Below are positions 54,193-61,329 of a DNA stretch of 61,925 nucleotides, in pieces. Origin of the DNA: Planctomycetota bacterium (GTDB taxonomy: Bacteria; Planctomycetota; Phycisphaerae; Phycisphaerales; SM1A02). The position numbers and the translations under genes are program-made. The notes beneath the pieces were generated by a model, which had not been told where the DNA came from, searched no databases, and worked only from the letters and a program-made list of their open reading frames with translations. Location of the stretch: contig JAQCEQ010000013.1 of assembly GCA_027618565.1 (NCBI GenBank), positions 1-61,925 on the forward strand, read 5' to 3'. The stretch's first letter is position 1. Every line of letters begins with the position of its first letter.

Positions 54193-54227
54193 GCTTGGAT
54201 GAGGCTACGCCAGTACCCTGCCATGCT

Positions 54228-55160
54228 GTGAGTCCGCGCAACTCGTTCACTACCACGGCCCATGCTCGCGTTGGGCTCTTGGGCAATCCATCGGACATCT
54301 ATGGAGGTGCGGGGATTGGATTTGCTGTGAGTGAATTGGCGGCGACGGTGACCGTGCGGGCTGATGAGCGATGGTCCGCGCCTGGCGAAGCTGGTCAACT
54401 GCTGGAGGCCGCGTGGCAGGCATTCGCCCGTGAACTGGGCATGCTTCACGACGGCGCGCTCCCCGCGTGCTCGCTCTCGATGCAGACAACGATTCCCATG
54501 CAGTCCGGGCTCGGCGGCTCCAGCGCCATCGTGATCGCGGCGATGAGGGCGTGGGGAATGTGGTTGGGCACGCAGCTCGCGCCGATGCGACTGGCTCACG
54601 CGGCGTGGGTCGCCGAGCACACGATCTTGGGGACGATCGCGGGGCCGCTGGATCGATTGGTGCAAGCGCATGAGGGGTTGTGCGTGATGGAGTTTCAGGA
54701 CCCCTTCGCCGCGGCTTCCTTGGAGCACCTCCCACCAGGCATCCTCCCGCCAATGCTCCTCGCGTGGCATCGGGAGGCGGGCCACCCCAGCGGCGATGTG
54801 CACCGTGCGGTGTTTGAGCGATGGGAGCAGGGTGACGCGCAGGTTCGCCGTGTCATGGAGTCGCTGGCCCAACTCGCGAGAGAGGGTGCGGGGCGCCTGC
54901 GCGCTGGGGATCGGCCCAGATTCCTCGAATGCATCGATCGCAACTTCGCGCTGCGCACCAAACTCTTCGATGTCGATCCTCGAGACATCCAGTTGATCCA
55001 GTGTGCTCGCTCGTGCGGAGCCGCTGCAAAGTTGCCCGGCTCCGGCGGCGCGGTGCTGGTGGTGGCGCCAGACCGGCAGTTGCTGGACGATGCGGAAGGC
55101 GCGCTGAGGCAGCTAGGCGCTTCCACTCTCCGGCCAACGGTGAAGGAGCCGACGCCATGA
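54228..55160 (+). CDS. GHMP kinase resembling plant glucuronokinase
   Basis: A 310-residue small-molecule kinase. I start at the GTG at 54228 (SPRNSFTTTAHARVGLLGNP); a TTG at 54195 would add eleven residues. The front motif ARVGLLGNPSDIYGG is close to that of plant glucuronokinase, the ATP loop is QSGLGGSSAIV (92-102) and the C-terminal GHMP motif is KLPGSGGAVLVV. Other remembered similarities to Arabidopsis GlcAK are GTIAGPLDRLVQAHEGLCVM, PPMLLAWHREAG and NFALRTKLFD. If the assignment holds, it makes glucuronate 1-phosphate; another sugar acid is possible. Its stop overlaps the GNAT start by four bases. Confidence 0.8.
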   Translation: MSPRNSFTTTAHARVGLLGNPSDIYGGAGIGFAVSELAATVTVRADERWSAPGEAGQLLEAAWQAFARELGMLHDGALPACSLSMQTTIPMQSGLGGSSAIVIAAMRAWGMWLGTQLAPMRLAHAAWVAEHTILGTIAGPLDRLVQAHEGLCVMEFQDPFAAASLEHLPPGILPPMLLAWHREAGHPSGDVHRAVFERWEQGDAQVRRVMESLAQLAREGAGRLRAGDRPRFLECIDRNFALRTKLFDVDPRDIQLIQCARSCGAAAKLPGSGGAVLVVAPDRQLLDDAEGALRQLGASTLRPTVKEPTP

Positions 55161-55708: not shown

Positions 55709-56227
55709 ATGATCGAATGGGCCTACTTCCCGCGGTCGGCGGCTGCACCAGCGCTGGTGCTGGATCTGGTCGACCTGTTTCGACAGGAGCAGGCATCGAT
55801 CGACTCTCATAGGCACAAGCTCGAGAGCAATCATGTGCTCAACTGCTTGCGGCCGGGACTCCACCGACTTGGATTTGACGTTGAAACTGGCAAGTCCGCC
55901 GGCAAGAAGGTCCGGGTGCCCGTGCTCTACGGCAATCGTGGCGAAGTGTCCAAGGCATTCGATGCGGACGCTCATCACCGCGCGCGCGGTTTTGTCTTGG
56001 AGGTGGAAGCGGGGCGCGCCGTGGTCAACAACCAATTCTTGAAGGATCTCTTCCAGGCTTGCATGATGGAGGGAGTTACTCACCTCGGCATCGCCGTCCG
56101 GCAGGTCTACGGCACCAACAGATCACTCCGACACGACTTCGACACCGTCGTCACCTTCATGGACACGCTTTACGCAAGCCAGCGGCTGAAGCTCCCGCTC
56201 CAAGGCGTGCTCATCGTCGGCTACTGA
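55709..56227 (+). CDS. Protein of unknown function with possible nuclease-like core
   Basis: A 172-residue soluble protein (ATG at 55709, MIEWAYFPRSAAAP). It belongs to a group of small bacterial proteins I remember as hypothetical: the conserved stretch AFDADAHHRARGFVLEVEAG, then NNQFLKDLFQACMMEGVTHL and the end LYASQRLKLPLQGVLIVGY. The D-x-D followed by GFVLEVEAG recalls the strand arrangement of PD-(D/E)xK nucleases with Glu in place of Lys, but this is a weak resemblance and other roles are equally possible. Its 3' end overlaps the SAM-synthetase-like gene on the opposite strand by 17 bases. Confidence 0.65.
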   Translation: MIEWAYFPRSAAAPALVLDLVDLFRQEQASIDSHRHKLESNHVLNCLRPGLHRLGFDVETGKSAGKKVRVPVLYGNRGEVSKAFDADAHHRARGFVLEVEAGRAVVNNQFLKDLFQACMMEGVTHLGIAVRQVYGTNRSLRHDFDTVVTFMDTLYASQRLKLPLQGVLIVGY

Positions 56228-57368
56228 CCGCCTCCGCTTCCCGTCCGCTCGCGGCGAAGTGCCCCCACCTCGCCCAGGAGTGCGCTGAGCGAAGCCCGCG
56301 CTGCATCTCTTCCGCACCGAACAGCTCGCCGACCGCGGCTAGACGGAGGTCGCCGGGAAGGCAGAGCCCGGTCGCGTCGATCGACTCCCCACGCCCATCC
56401 AGCGCACTCTCCAGCGTGAACTCGCGATCCCCGGGCCGGATCGACAGCGTCACCGCGCACTCCTCCACGCCGCGCGAGTGGGCGATTTCCCACGCGAGGT
56501 CGCGCGCAAGGAACGGTCCTGCGCGATCGACCTTCCAGATGTCCTTGCCCGACATCGCGCCGCCGCCAATGGGAACTCGCGGACCATAGAAGTCCATCAC
56601 GAGCTTCTTGCCGGAGAGGCCGTTGTCACCGTGAGGTCCGCCCTCGACAAAGTCGCCGCCGCCGTTGATGATGAACTCCAAGTCGCCGCTGGTGGAGAGA
56701 CCCGGCACGGTCACCGACATGCGCTCGCACTCGGACCGCATTGCACCCTCCACGGCTCGTCGAGCGCGAACGCCATCCCAGCCGGCGCGGTGCTGGACTG
56801 ACACCGAGATCCTGGTAATGACCCACGCTCGAGGCTCCCGATGCTCTTGCACGGACACGATCACCTTTCCGTCGGGGCCGAAGCCCAGCGACGCGTCCTG
56901 CCGAAGCCCGTGGAGCGCCAACGCCAGGCGCCGCACCAACGCCTGCTCCACCGGCATCCCGTCCGTGCCGGGAATCGTGTTTGCATAGCCCGCGACAATG
57001 GACTGGTCGTCCGCCACCTCTCGGAACTCCGCCTCCATCGCAAGCAGCGGCCCGACGCAGAGGTCCATGGACACATGAAGCGAGCCGCGCCTGGGCGGAA
57101 ACACGGCGCAGTAGCCCAGCTCCGCGTACACATCCTTCGCGAGCGCAGCGATGTCAATCCCCGCCGCGTTCCGGCAGGCGATGCGTCCGTCGATGAACAC
57201 ACGGTCGCGATGCACCGCCACTTCCACGCCGACCAGCGCGCGGGATTCGCGCCGCCATGCTTCGAGGACGATTGAATCGGCGATGGCATCGGCCACCTTG
57301 TCCGGGTGACCCGGAAGCACCCACTCGGCGGTGCGGGAGGGTGGCGCTCGTGATGGGGTCGAGATCAT
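56211..57368 (-). CDS. Divergent S-adenosylmethionine synthetase (MetK-like)
   Basis: A 385-residue methionine adenosyltransferase homologue. It keeps GHPDK (20-24), ADDQSIVAGYA (the GDQG region, here DDQ), NGGGDFVEGG, GGPHGDNGLSGKK (243-255) and GGGAMSGKDIWKVDR (268-282), which bind ATP, methionine and the metals. Overall it is clearly more diverged than a housekeeping MetK: the usual SESVxEGHPDK reads EWVLPGHPDK. The N-terminal dozen residues are disordered-looking. It is the last gene of the MoxR/VWA unit, with its ATG in a four-base overlap with the VWA stop. Either a second MAT in this genome or an enzyme using another substrate. Confidence 0.86.
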   Translation of the reverse strand: MISTPSRAPPSRTAEWVLPGHPDKVADAIADSIVLEAWRRESRALVGVEVAVHRDRVFIDGRIACRNAAGIDIAALAKDVYAELGYCAVFPPRRGSLHVSMDLCVGPLLAMEAEFREVADDQSIVAGYANTIPGTDGMPVEQALVRRLALALHGLRQDASLGFGPDGKVIVSVQEHREPRAWVITRISVSVQHRAGWDGVRARRAVEGAMRSECERMSVTVPGLSTSGDLEFIINGGGDFVEGGPHGDNGLSGKKLVMDFYGPRVPIGGGAMSGKDIWKVDRAGPFLARDLAWEIAHSRGVEECAVTLSIRPGDREFTLESALDGRGESIDATGLCLPGDLRLAAVGELFGAEEMQRGLRSAHSWARWGHFAASGREAEAVSSRR

Positions 57369-58753
57369 GCTGCATTCCTTTCATGGCGCGCCGAGCGAAG
57401 TTGCCCGACATGGTTGACATAGTCCTTCATGAATTCGTGCGTGGCGCCGTAGCCACCCGCATCGTTGGGCGTGAGCGCCACCGCGATCCGCGCCGCTCTC
57501 AGCGCGTCCAGGCCCCTGCCGTGCGGCTGCTCCACATGGCCGTCGGTGATGATCACGGCTCGATTCACCCGATTGGCCACCATATGGTCCGCGACGCACT
57601 GAATGCAGGTCCCACCGGTCGTGGGGCATTCGCCCCGCGCCAACGCCGAGAGCGAGACATCGGCCACGGTTGTGGAGAAGAGGTGAATCACTGGATGGAT
57701 GAGTTCGCGGCACGACAGCACGGCTCCATACAGGTCGCCCTTCAGTTCACCGATGCTGCCAGAGACATCCAGATAGATGTGAACCGTTTCCGTCGCCGCG
57801 CCGCGCTGTCTCGCGAGGACCTCGCCACGGTAGAGCATCGGGCGCACGTGGAGCTGCCGCAGGATTCCGGCACGACGGTCCAGCGATGGCAGTGGCGACT
57901 CCACCTCGCGCGGCGAGAAGTGACTCTCGGGGACGCGTCCCGTCAACGATCGACGCGCCACCGCCCGAATCAACCTGGACAGCAACTCGCGGTTGGTGGG
58001 GGGAGCGACCCTGATCGTTTCACGCCGCAGCATCGCGTCGTAGGAGAGGCCGGTGATGGGATTGGGCGGCTGCGGCCATCCCTGCACGATGTCGCGGACT
58101 CGCTGCAGCAAGGCAGGCGCCCGCGACTCCAGATCTCCTGCGCTGGATGCTCCACCCGACTCCGGGCGATGGTCTCCCAAGAGGCGCCCCACATCGACCT
58201 CCTCGTCTGCCTGCTGTGACGAGAGCGCCTCGCGCAGTTGGTCGTAGGTGACCGACTGCGAGTGGTAGAGCGCCGTGTACAGCATCGCCAGGTCACCTCG
58301 CTCCGTCGACATGAGCGCGCCCGGGATCTGGATCGCCGCCCCCGGGGTCCAGTCCTCGGGCGGTCGCAAGAAGCACTCTGGGAATCGGTCAAGGCGGTAG
58401 GTGCTCCGGAACAGCGCCGTGTACGGTGGATCCGGGAACAGGTGGCAGAGCATGGCGTTGATCACCGCGTCGAACACCAGGTTGTCGATCGGCGTCACGC
58501 GCGAGTAGAGACGCGTGTGTCCAAGAATGACATGGTGCAGTTCATGCAGGATGAGCATGACCAGCTTCTCGGGGGTGTTCGCGTGCTGCGACACCCACTC
58601 GGGGTTGATCCGCAGACGCGGACGACCAGCGCATTCGACCGCCGCGGTTGGGACGTCAGTCGTCTCCACGATCTCCACGATTTCCAGGAATGCCGGGAAG
58701 CAGTAGACGCCGGAGGGGAACGAGTTGATGATGGTGTCGGTGAGGGATGGCAT
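57365..58753 (-). CDS. HExxH metallopeptidase-like plus VWA domain protein (DUF2201-like)
   Basis: A 462-residue cytosolic protein. Residues 70-79 are HELHHVILGH, the zinc-binding helix of the putative metallopeptidase half (DUF2201-like). After a linker that contains an acidic segment (SSQQADEEVDVGRLLGDHRP), a VWA domain begins; its MIDAS motif is DVSGSIG (329-335, DxSxS), and the late RAVIITDGHVEQPHG completes it. Proteins of this kind work with MoxR AAA ATPases in substrate remodelling or peptide maturation. Eleven bases separate it from the small gene upstream; its stop overlaps the SAM-synthetase-like ATG. The ATG ending at 58753 (MPSLTDTIINSF) is preferred to the longer frame to 58873. 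Confidence 0.86.
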   Translation of the reverse strand: MPSLTDTIINSFPSGVYCFPAFLEIVEIVETTDVPTAAVECAGRPRLRINPEWVSQHANTPEKLVMLILHELHHVILGHTRLYSRVTPIDNLVFDAVINAMLCHLFPDPPYTALFRSTYRLDRFPECFLRPPEDWTPGAAIQIPGALMSTERGDLAMLYTALYHSQSVTYDQLREALSSQQADEEVDVGRLLGDHRPESGGASSAGDLESRAPALLQRVRDIVQGWPQPPNPITGLSYDAMLRRETIRVAPPTNRELLSRLIRAVARRSLTGRVPESHFSPREVESPLPSLDRRAGILRQLHVRPMLYRGEVLARQRGAATETVHIYLDVSGSIGELKGDLYGAVLSCRELIHPVIHLFSTTVADVSLSALARGECPTTGGTCIQCVADHMVANRVNRAVIITDGHVEQPHGRGLDALRAARIAVALTPNDAGGYGATHEFMKDYVNHVGQLRSARHERNAA

Positions 58754-58764
58754 GAGTGTGGGTC

Positions 58765-59316
58765 CTAGGAGTGTGATGGGTTCGATCGTGGGAGCAGTAG
58801 GTGAAGTTCGCGGAGGAGCTGCGCCGTGGTCACCAATGGCGGCCCATCCCGGATAAAGACCGAGCCAGCGCATCGAGTCAGGACGCAGATAGCCCAGTGG
58901 ATGTCGAATGGATCAATGAGTGTCATCTCCCCCGCGAGGCGACTCCACGGCTGCACTCGCACGACCGTCGCGCACGGGGGAAGTTCGAGGTACACCATGG
59001 GTGTCTCCTCTGCCGCCGACATGATGTAATCGAAGGCGTCGGAGTTCTTCCGAAACCGCGTCCCAAGATCCACGACGGATCCCTCGCGGAGTCGGTCGGC
59101 AATGGCGCACAGCGTTGGCGGCGACTTCGCGTCCCACCGTTTCGGCCCCTCGCCCGCCCTCCGGTCCCGCGTGTCGGCACGATCCGCCAGGCACACGCGA
59201 CTCGCATTGCACAGCGGCACACCCGCGCGCCTCGCCACCGCGTCGGGACGAACGCTCATGTTGGCCAGCCAGCGCGACGCGCCAGCCGCAGTGCTGCGTG
59301 ATCGATCTCCACTCAT
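58765..59316 (-). CDS. Small protein of unknown function in the MoxR/VWA cassette
   Basis: A 183-residue soluble protein with no family I recognise. The start at 59316 (MSGDRSRSTAAGASR) overlaps the MoxR stop by four bases. Four cysteines are spread over the length (PLCNASRVC, TLCAIADR, LPPCATVV, CVLTRCAG). The second half alternates strands and helices (TPMVYLELPPC, GEMTLIDPFDIHWAICVLTR, GPPLVTTAQLLRELHLLL). Located between the ATPase and the VWA gene, it is a candidate substrate or adaptor. The coding frame is supported by coupling on both sides; long frames in other frames here are shadows. Confidence 0.65.
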   Translation of the reverse strand: MSGDRSRSTAAGASRWLANMSVRPDAVARRAGVPLCNASRVCLADRADTRDRRAGEGPKRWDAKSPPTLCAIADRLREGSVVDLGTRFRKNSDAFDYIMSAAEETPMVYLELPPCATVVRVQPWSRLAGEMTLIDPFDIHWAICVLTRCAGSVFIRDGPPLVTTAQLLRELHLLLPRSNPSHS

Positions 59317-61043
59317 GCGTCGGCGCTCCCCTTCCCGACCACGAGCACGGACCTGTCGCACATGCCCCACACGGACTCCCACTGCGCAATGGCGCGATCC
59401 ACATCCGCCGCCGCTACGACCGTCGCGCCCCGAAACAACTCCGTGAGGAGGTTGGCCAGCGCCGGGAAGTCGCGCCGTGCTGGGTCGATCGCGGCGAGCG
59501 AAGCCTCGATGTGCCGCCACAGCTGGAATCGCGGCCCAGCCGACTGGATCGGCAGTTCGATGCCAGCGCCCTCAGCGCACATCGCATGCAGCTGCGCCAG
59601 TTGGTCAAGGACCGGGACGATCAGCCGTTCTGGGTTGCATCGAGTCATCAGGTGGAACGCCAAGGCATGACGGCCGCCCGCCGGAAGTCCCGAGAGCGCG
59701 TCCGCGCAGTACGAAGAGAGCTCCTGCGATGTCAGGCACTGCAGTGACATCGCCTGAAGGCAACGCTGCACTCGGTCTGGGATTGCCGCAAGGACTCGAC
59801 GCGGGTCGGCATCTTCCGTTGACACCAGCGCGAAGGCCGCACGGTGCGCCGCCAGCATGCGCGCCAGGTCCAGTTTCTTGGCGCGGGCCCGTTGCGGGAT
59901 CGATGACGACAGCGCCATCCAGATGGAGTCCCCAATCTCCGGCGACTGACCCAGTGCCTGCCGAGCCGCATGCACCGCCACGATGTTCTGGAACAGCATG
60001 GTTGCTCGACGCCCGCTGAGCGCGATCCCCAGCGACGACAATCGCCCCATGATGTCCACCACATAGGCCGTCACCGCGTTTCCAAGGACGGCTTCCCATC
60101 GTGGCATCCAGTCCTGAGTGAGTGAGATCAGCGAGGCGAGCCGTTCGCGCACCGGAGTCGTGACTGGCGTGATCGAATGCCTGGCGACTGCGGCTTGGTC
60201 GCCTGCGCTGAGCCCTCGCCACGCGGGCACTTCCACCACGAACGGGAAGCGATCGGCCAGCGCCGGGTCCAGTTCCTCGCTGCCCAGGTAGTGGTCGGGG
60301 CTACCCCCAATGGTTGCGCCGACCGAGCCAAGGTCGATCGCATCCGCATCGACCGGAGGATTCATCGCGGCCCATCGGTAGCGCAACTTCTCAAGCGGCA
60401 GACCCTGCACCTTGCGCTCGTGGATGATGGGGAACAGGCGATTGAGCATGTCGGGACGAGCGCGAGAGAGTTCGTCAATGAACACGGCCTCCGCGCCCCA
60501 CACCGATGCCGGAGTCTGCACAAATCGCAGCGAACCATCCGCGTCGGGCACTGGGTAGCCGATCAAATCGTCGTAGTTGACGAGGGCCGCGTTGAAGTGC
60601 CGCCACTCCAGGCCAAACGCCTCCGCGAGCCGGCAGAGAAGAAAACTCTTTGCGGTGCCGTGCTCACCCACCAGGAGGAGTGGCGCCTCAAGGGCTAGCG
60701 CGGCAATGATGACCGGCTCAAGGTGGTCGTAGCCGATGACGCCGAGCTCGCGGAGGATGTGGGTGGGCGCGGGAGCGGGTGCGGTGGTGGTGGCGGGTGT
60801 GGGCGCCTCGGAGGCTGACGGAGCGAGCGTGCTTGCGCGAATGGTGGCGGCTGCATTACCGCTTCTACGCCGCGATTCACGCCACCGGCGAAGCGTGGCG
60901 AAGGCGGAGCCGGCGGCAGGCGCGGCCGGGAGCTGCGGCGGTGCGGCGGGCGCTGGAAGTGCGCTCCCCTTGGTGGTCTGGGTCGGGCTGAAGGTCGCGG
61001 TCGAGTCGCCAGCAATCGGCGACCTCAGGGCATGTCTCGACAT
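59313..61043 (-). CDS. MoxR-family AAA ATPase with Pro/Ala-rich N-terminal extension
   Basis: A 576-residue AAA ATPase starting at the ATG ending at 61043 (MSRHALRSPIAGDST). Residues 1-95 are low-complexity Pro/Ala/Thr, probably a flexible tether. The ATPase then has Walker A GEHGTAKS (126-133), Walker B AVFIDELSRA (186-195), the sensor-like WAAMNPP and the arginine-containing ELDPALADRFPFVVEVPAWR, as in MoxR/YifB-type proteins. About 250 further C-terminal residues are helical. MoxR ATPases usually power the remodelling of a VWA-containing partner, here the HExxH/VWA protein encoded two genes downstream. Divergent from the DUF3883-type gene; the 286-base gap shows no gene but should hold both promoters. 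Confidence 0.88.
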   Translation of the reverse strand: MSRHALRSPIAGDSTATFSPTQTTKGSALPAPAAPPQLPAAPAAGSAFATLRRWRESRRRSGNAAATIRASTLAPSASEAPTPATTTAPAPAPTHILRELGVIGYDHLEPVIIAALALEAPLLLVGEHGTAKSFLLCRLAEAFGLEWRHFNAALVNYDDLIGYPVPDADGSLRFVQTPASVWGAEAVFIDELSRARPDMLNRLFPIIHERKVQGLPLEKLRYRWAAMNPPVDADAIDLGSVGATIGGSPDHYLGSEELDPALADRFPFVVEVPAWRGLSAGDQAAVARHSITPVTTPVRERLASLISLTQDWMPRWEAVLGNAVTAYVVDIMGRLSSLGIALSGRRATMLFQNIVAVHAARQALGQSPEIGDSIWMALSSSIPQRARAKKLDLARMLAAHRAAFALVSTEDADPRRVLAAIPDRVQRCLQAMSLQCLTSQELSSYCADALSGLPAGGRHALAFHLMTRCNPERLIVPVLDQLAQLHAMCAEGAGIELPIQSAGPRFQLWRHIEASLAAIDPARRDFPALANLLTELFRGATVVAAADVDRAIAQWESVWGMCDRSVLVVGKGSADA

Positions 61044-61329
61044 GTCGTTCCTCACGACATCGAGAGCGCCAGCAGTTGGAAAGAAGCCGTTCCCCACCGG
61101 GGGAACTGTTTGCCGAGGCACCGGACTGCGTTCAGGATCGCAGTCAGGACTTTGGCCGCATCGCCCTTTCCTGGGCTGGTCTCAGCACCGTGCGCCGCTG
61201 TGCGGGGTCGGTTGCTACTCGGGCTTGAAGAGACCTGCCCGAGACTCTGGATGCTGGGGGGAAGTGTAGCACCGGCGCGGGGTGTATGCAAGATGGGGAC
61301 GGGAATTGCCGAGGGGTTATCCTGGGGGG

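Follow-up and report, generated by a model that had tools for sequence, protein, structure and literature searches.

A conserved operon joins a MoxR/VWA pair to a diverged methionine adenosyltransferase-like protein behind a riboswitch element of the S-adenosylmethionine type

In contig JAQCEQ010000013.1 of a Planctomycetota bacterium (assembly GCA_027618565.1, order Phycisphaerales), analysed here over positions 1 to 61,925 (the window), a cassette on the minus strand (56211-61043) encodes, head to tail, a MoxR-class AAA+ ATPase, a small protein, a protein with HExxH and VWA domains and a protein resembling methionine adenosyltransferase (the MAT-like protein). We find that this four-gene cassette is a real, conserved operon, of which we are practically certain, and that an element of the SAM-I riboswitch clan stands in front of it. 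Methyl groups are donated in cells mainly by S-adenosylmethionine (SAM), whose synthase ranks with the most highly conserved enzymes; the operon appears to be a part of SAM metabolism that has not been described. The reading that we favour, and to which we give about an even chance, is that of a SAM-homeostasis operon controlled by a riboswitch of the SAM-I clan, in which a MAT-like adenosyltransferase with a changed acceptor is served by the MoxR/VWA pair. A description of the operon was absent from the titles and abstracts returned by our literature searches, many subscription papers lying outside their reach.

The genes, their order and their strand are as given in the preliminary description, as are the junctions, which consist of two 4-base overlaps (59313-59316 and 57365-57368) and one 11-base gap between the small-protein and VWA genes. 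The MoxR protein (59313..61043, 576 amino acids) matches the Pfam family AAA_5 with 44.5 bits (cut-off 22) and keeps the Walker A, Walker B and DRF motifs. The small accessory protein (58765..59316, 183 amino acids) gave zero matches in Pfam, NCBIfam and PADLOC. The third protein (57365..58753, 462 amino acids) combines a metallopeptidase-like HExxH region, matched to DUF2201_N barely over the cut-off (23.9 bits against 23.2), with a VWA domain carrying a metal-ion-dependent adhesion site (MIDAS), as indicated by Pfam, by its motifs and by a structure model. In the MAT-like protein (56211..57368, 385 amino acids), assigned to the MAT fold by homology, all three MAT domains exceed the Pfam cut-off.

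Conservation of the cassette was followed in the best 80 of 285 confirmed relatives of the VWA protein, obtained from a scan of genome contigs; near-copies occur within this set (L175, L177, L178 and L184). By their record titles, these loci come from Planctomycetota, Beta-, Gamma- and Alphaproteobacteria, Chloroflexi, Acidobacteria and Opitutia. A MAT-like gene lies immediately downstream of the VWA gene in 72 of the 76 loci with room for it, a MoxR gene lies upstream in 68 of 69, and the slot between MoxR and VWA, where the sequence covers it, is occupied in nearly all loci by a small open frame. The proposals that the four genes act as one unit and that a diverged MAT is a fixed partner of MoxR and VWA are both borne out by this recurrence. 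When the MoxR, VWA and MAT-like proteins are each compared pairwise over 46 loci, the three sets of distances correlate with one another (r 0.89-0.93, reached in 0 of 1000 permutations), as shared ancestry alone would also make them do. Because the gene order recurs across phyla and the protein distances correlate, we consider the cassette to be beyond chance. Its distribution is patchy: the VWA protein was found in 10 of 151 genomes of the source's order, all ten of which also hold a nearby MAT-like gene and a separate MetK. G105 (at G105:C7), G679, G688 and G699 are examples of genomes with two cassettes or with two MAT-like genes.

The preliminary description had missed the SAM riboswitch ahead of the operon, which is an addition of the present analysis; SAM-II-like repeats in the upstream sequences led to the search for it. 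An element of the SAM riboswitch family is found up to 1.3 kb upstream of MoxR in 54 of 56 loci, these being the ones among the 80 in which the start of MoxR is present and preceded by 120 bases or more. The count pools Rfam matches with those of our own models R1 and R2, which were themselves built from some of these loci; R2 also recovered loci outside its building set at E values of 1e-11 or better (for example L151, L152, L153, L159, L163, L165, L172 and L192). The two loci without an element are L164, in which MoxR is truncated, and L213. Upstream of many cassettes, Rfam itself reports SAM-I-IV, SAM or SAM_alpha above the gathering score, and it does not report the element of the planctomycete cassettes and one from Chloroflexi (L141, L142, L143, L146, L161 and L196). 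The window element (61153..61256, minus strand), a SAM-I-clan variant that we call class A and recognise by a model of our own, by covariation and by a pseudoknot, scores 19.8 bits against Rfam SAM-I-IV, below the gathering score of 41.1. It was found with 89 bits (E 2e-18) by model R3, which was built without it, and is the one good match of that model in the genome, the next reaching 15.2 bits.

Alignment of 15 elements of the planctomycete form gives 24 base pairs, 11 of which are changed on both sides, paired cells make up 95.8% and doubly changed cells number 42; 0 of 500 shuffles reach either value. A loop pseudoknot of 4-7 pairs is present in 15 of 15 elements (0 of 2000 shuffles). The cassette element shares with the SAM-I and SAM-I-IV families (Rfam clan CL00012) the P1-P2-P3 layout, the GCAACC and GGUGC cores and the pseudoknot from the P2 loop, differing in that the window element falls below the Rfam gathering score. 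A further likeness lies in its other targets. The planctomycete element model matches in 107 of 301 genomes of the source's order, and in the 29 loci whose downstream gene was read it precedes 15 MoxR genes, 7 genes for pyridoxal phosphate enzymes of Cys/Met metabolism (in a sister family; Pfam-confirmed in 7 of 7), 2 SNF2-like helicases and 5 genes without identification. A helicase gene, as in L294 and L297 (at G646:C175 and G132:C1; one helicase confirmed), is not what a SAM switch would be expected to control.

A riboswitch in front of the operon ties it to SAM or methionine metabolism, and it is very likely, from these sequence features, that the operon is SAM-regulated. We infer the ligand and the sign of the switch from its class. 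SAM-I, SAM-I-IV and SAM-II switches mostly shut genes off when SAM is abundant, and the operon is therefore probably on when SAM is scarce. In the window, a hairpin that runs up to the MoxR start codon (61042..61060, minus strand) and carries a GAGGA loop resembling a ribosome-binding site fits translational control, and similar start-codon hairpins occur in 5 of 14 relatives examined. In 12 proteobacterial loci the elements stand in tandem, SAM-I-IV followed by a SAM-II-like one, and in L148, L174 and L205 a terminator-like sequence, read by eye, follows the first aptamer. A sigma-54 promoter was also sought ahead of MoxR, because RtcR matches flank cassettes (recurring in L148 and L203); 54 loci gave 0 matches, with 0.56 expected.

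As to the MAT-like protein itself, the preliminary description had reasoned that a sole metK falling among ordinary ones would make it just the housekeeping enzyme beside a MoxR operon. The source genome holds a second MAT homologue (G000:C25) that scores 507 bits to the metK model and is a true MetK, whereas the window protein scores 148-149.5 bits against the same NCBIfam model (TIGR01034) and does not reach its cut-off of 309.4. Our tree comprised 112 rows (66 MAT-like proteins, 21 MetK including that of E. coli, and 25 of 61 phage MetK), and in it all 66 MAT-like proteins lie on one side of a branch with a support of 100 in the Shimodaira-Hasegawa-like approximate likelihood ratio test, a branch at which, as the program warned, long branches meet. 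From these sequences, the MAT-like proteins almost certainly form a clade separate from MetK. A true MetK coexists with them in 31 of 34 MAT-like-bearing genomes of a further set, three of the 31 being fragments at contig ends. Two further MAT homologues (G706:C76 and G712:C5, 261 and 280 bits) fall between the MAT-like clade and MetK and are perhaps a further subfamily.

The active-site residues, numbered here as in mature E. coli MetK, divide into two groups. His14, Asp16, Asp118, Lys165, Asp238, Lys245, Lys265 and Asp271 are kept in 66 of 66 MAT-like proteins, and Glu42 (65/66) and Lys269 (63/66) nearly throughout, so that 10 of the 11 ATP and triphosphate catalytic residues checked are retained (63-66 of 66 each), the exception being Arg244, which is Lys in all 66. 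The methionine side, in contrast, is replaced: Glu55 is Arg in 62 of 66, Gln98 of the gating loop is deleted in 66 of 66 with shortening of the loop, and Ile302 is Pro in 66 of 66. Ordinary and phage MetK retain Glu55, Gln98, Ile302 and Arg244 in 82 of 82 rows. In human MAT, Glu70, Gln113 and Asp258 contact the main chain of methionine, as reported in PMC7271947 and PMC6850014; the catalytic residues found to be conserved in a set of 2963 sequences include Glu70, Gln113 and Arg264 (PMC7271947), and Ser114Ala and Arg264Ala drop to 2.5% and 4.5% activity (PMC6850014). Shared so uniformly by some 60 diverse proteins, the changes in the MAT-like family are, on the evidence of the alignment, specialisation and not decay. 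We take the human and E. coli residues to correspond by a numbering offset with which our alignment agrees, and Ile302 to be a methionine contact. The MAT-like protein is probably not an ordinary SAM synthetase, and the proposal that it is a normal source of SAM is disfavoured by the replacement of the methionine-holding residues in nearly every member.

Because the ATP residues are kept and the methionine residues are not, we favour an adenosyl transfer to another acceptor or at a rebuilt site; whether the MAT-like protein is an active adenosyltransferase with a changed acceptor we judge to be about evenly balanced. As we picture it, low SAM would let the riboswitch permit expression of the operon, and the MAT-like protein would direct an attack on C5' of ATP with release of triphosphate. 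The acceptor site would no longer take free methionine in the standard way, and either another acceptor would be used or the site would be rebuilt; the replacement of Glu by Arg might point to an acceptor with a negative, not a positive, group at that place. The MoxR ring, together with the HExxH/VWA protein as adaptor, would activate or load the enzyme, and the small protein may be a specificity subunit of this machine. For this putative activase role, CbbQ/CbbO or NorQ/NorD and their clients serve as models. A bolder version, possible but held only tentatively, would make these proteins a new MAT-fold family that transfers the adenosyl group of ATP to a non-methionine acceptor to give a SAM-like product, with its own AAA+ activase and with SAM-type riboswitches, some of which perhaps sense the product.

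Three observations weigh against the changed-acceptor reading. Genomes G524, G680, G684 and G689 carry a MAT-like protein and no other MetK was seen in them; if they are complete at metK, the MAT-like protein would have to make SAM. At L173, L190, L205 and L207, the MoxR, small-protein and VWA genes stand without a MAT-like gene and with the riboswitch retained; the contig of L190 stops 1.1 kb downstream, and the genomes of all four hold only ordinary MetK homologues. Finally, human MAT2A with Gln113Ala retains 75.6% activity (PMC6850014), and loss of that residue alone therefore leaves SAM synthesis possible.

We have weighed three other explanations. The MAT-like protein could be, in place of an independent enzyme, a partner of ordinary MetK: MoxR/VWA would assemble the two into a mixed dimer or tetramer, which would tune the synthesis of SAM under low SAM. 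The active sites of MAT are located where the subunits of the dimer meet (PMC6850014), and true MetK coexists in the genomes counted above, both in the order and in the further set. Further, the MAT-like gene and a true metK share 4 bases in L202, and a metK follows closely in L204, an adjacency that keeps this explanation alive. We nevertheless think it rather unlikely, as invariance of most catalytic residues is not to be expected of a subunit with a regulatory role alone, and metK is usually located away from the cassette. An improbable alternative as well is a SAM synthetase with a rebuilt methionine site, perhaps completed by the small protein, that acts as a back-up source of SAM in starvation: control by a SAM riboswitch, retention of Asp118, Asp238 and Lys269, and the four genomes without a visible MetK speak for it, and the uniform changes at Glu55, the gating loop and Ile302, with a score far under the metK cut-off, speak against it. 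Very unlikely is an anti-phage conflict system of the MoxR-vWA ternary type, in which an ATP-consuming effector would be provided by the MAT-like protein. In its favour, MoxR and VWA form the core of such systems (PMC7159879), the spread is patchy and CRISPR type IV-like genes (Cas7, Cas5 and DinG) follow the cassette in L155 (12596-16697). Against it, PADLOC gave zero matches on the four proteins, bpMoxR reached 22 bits against a Pfam cut-off of 27, defence matches were scattered among the 124 of 249 deduplicated flanking proteins scanned, a scan without a control set, and the SAM riboswitch points to metabolism. As for mobile carriage, the VWA protein was unmatched in plasmids and phages and none was confirmed in viral contigs; the viral matches of the MAT-like protein are ordinary-looking MetK.

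In the MoxR proteins the Walker A pattern is present in 42 and Walker B in 45 of 46 loci, and in the VWA proteins the MIDAS motifs DxSGS and TDG in 46 of 46. The structure model of the VWA protein shows a VWA fold at residues 320-458 (Z up to 11.6, root mean square deviation 3.4 over 138 residues), with NorQD among the weaker matches to the modelled VWA half; the comparison was filled by that one domain and barely covers the N-terminal half. In sequence, MoxR alone gave a weak match to RavA, and the VWA and MoxR profiles gave zero matches to PDB sequences at the limits used. MoxR-VWA pairs work by the VWA domain capturing part of a client (PMC7159879). The conserved MIDAS and the modelled VWA fold fit such a client adaptor, for which the MAT-like protein, as its almost constant neighbour, is the natural client; we rate the chance that MoxR/VWA acts on it at roughly one in two. 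The small proteins form a family, of which we aligned 52 sequences; these share a motif resembling LLHNMSxPP or LxHNMSxPP at the N-terminus and an LRxxxP region at the C-terminus. An AlphaFold2 model of the small protein has a mean predicted local distance difference test score (pLDDT) of 75.9 and found no match among PDB structures. We considered the small protein as a peptidyl-methionine target and dropped the idea, as the Met of the N-terminal motif is not conserved.

Compared with known systems, the MAT-like protein resembles MetK (TIGR01034) in having all three domains and the ATP and triphosphate residues, but differs in its separate clade, its score below the cut-off, its replaced methionine site, its short gating loop and Lys for Arg244. 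As in the client systems NorQ-NorD, CoxD-CoxE and RavA-ViaA, to which CbbQ-CbbO and CobS-CobT also belong, a MoxR-class AAA+ ATPase adjoins a MIDAS-bearing VWA protein; unlike in these, the VWA protein of the cassette has an HExxH domain, and a small protein and a MAT-like protein are fixed partners. The MoxR-vWA ternary conflict systems (VMAP, bpMoxR) also share MoxR and VWA, but the cassette is without a matching third component, its bpMoxR score is below the cut-off and its regulation is metabolic. If the favoured SAM-homeostasis reading is true, an overlooked step of SAM metabolism is present across several phyla, and the MoxR-VWA family, of which few clients are known, gains a possible client enzyme. 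The riboswitch offers a direct handle, since expression should track SAM levels.

Some observations concern the surroundings of the cassettes. In the proteobacterial loci L179, L192, L180, L167, L163, L165 and L159 a neighbouring VWA protein is found, often with a MerR-like regulator (the pair in L192 was checked with Pfam), and HD-domain, WYL, RtcR and Nudix genes lie near other cassettes. Upstream of the cassette in L192 (4996-5564), L172 (3387-3961) and L157 (222-798), a SAM-I-IV element immediately precedes a DUF3293 gene or overlaps its start, so that DUF3293 also appears to belong to the SAM regulon; L192 comes from a cultured carrier, Limnohabitans sp. 2KL-51. Finally, in the window itself, a frame at 54195-55160 resembles a GHMP-type sugar kinase, as judged by eye from its translation.

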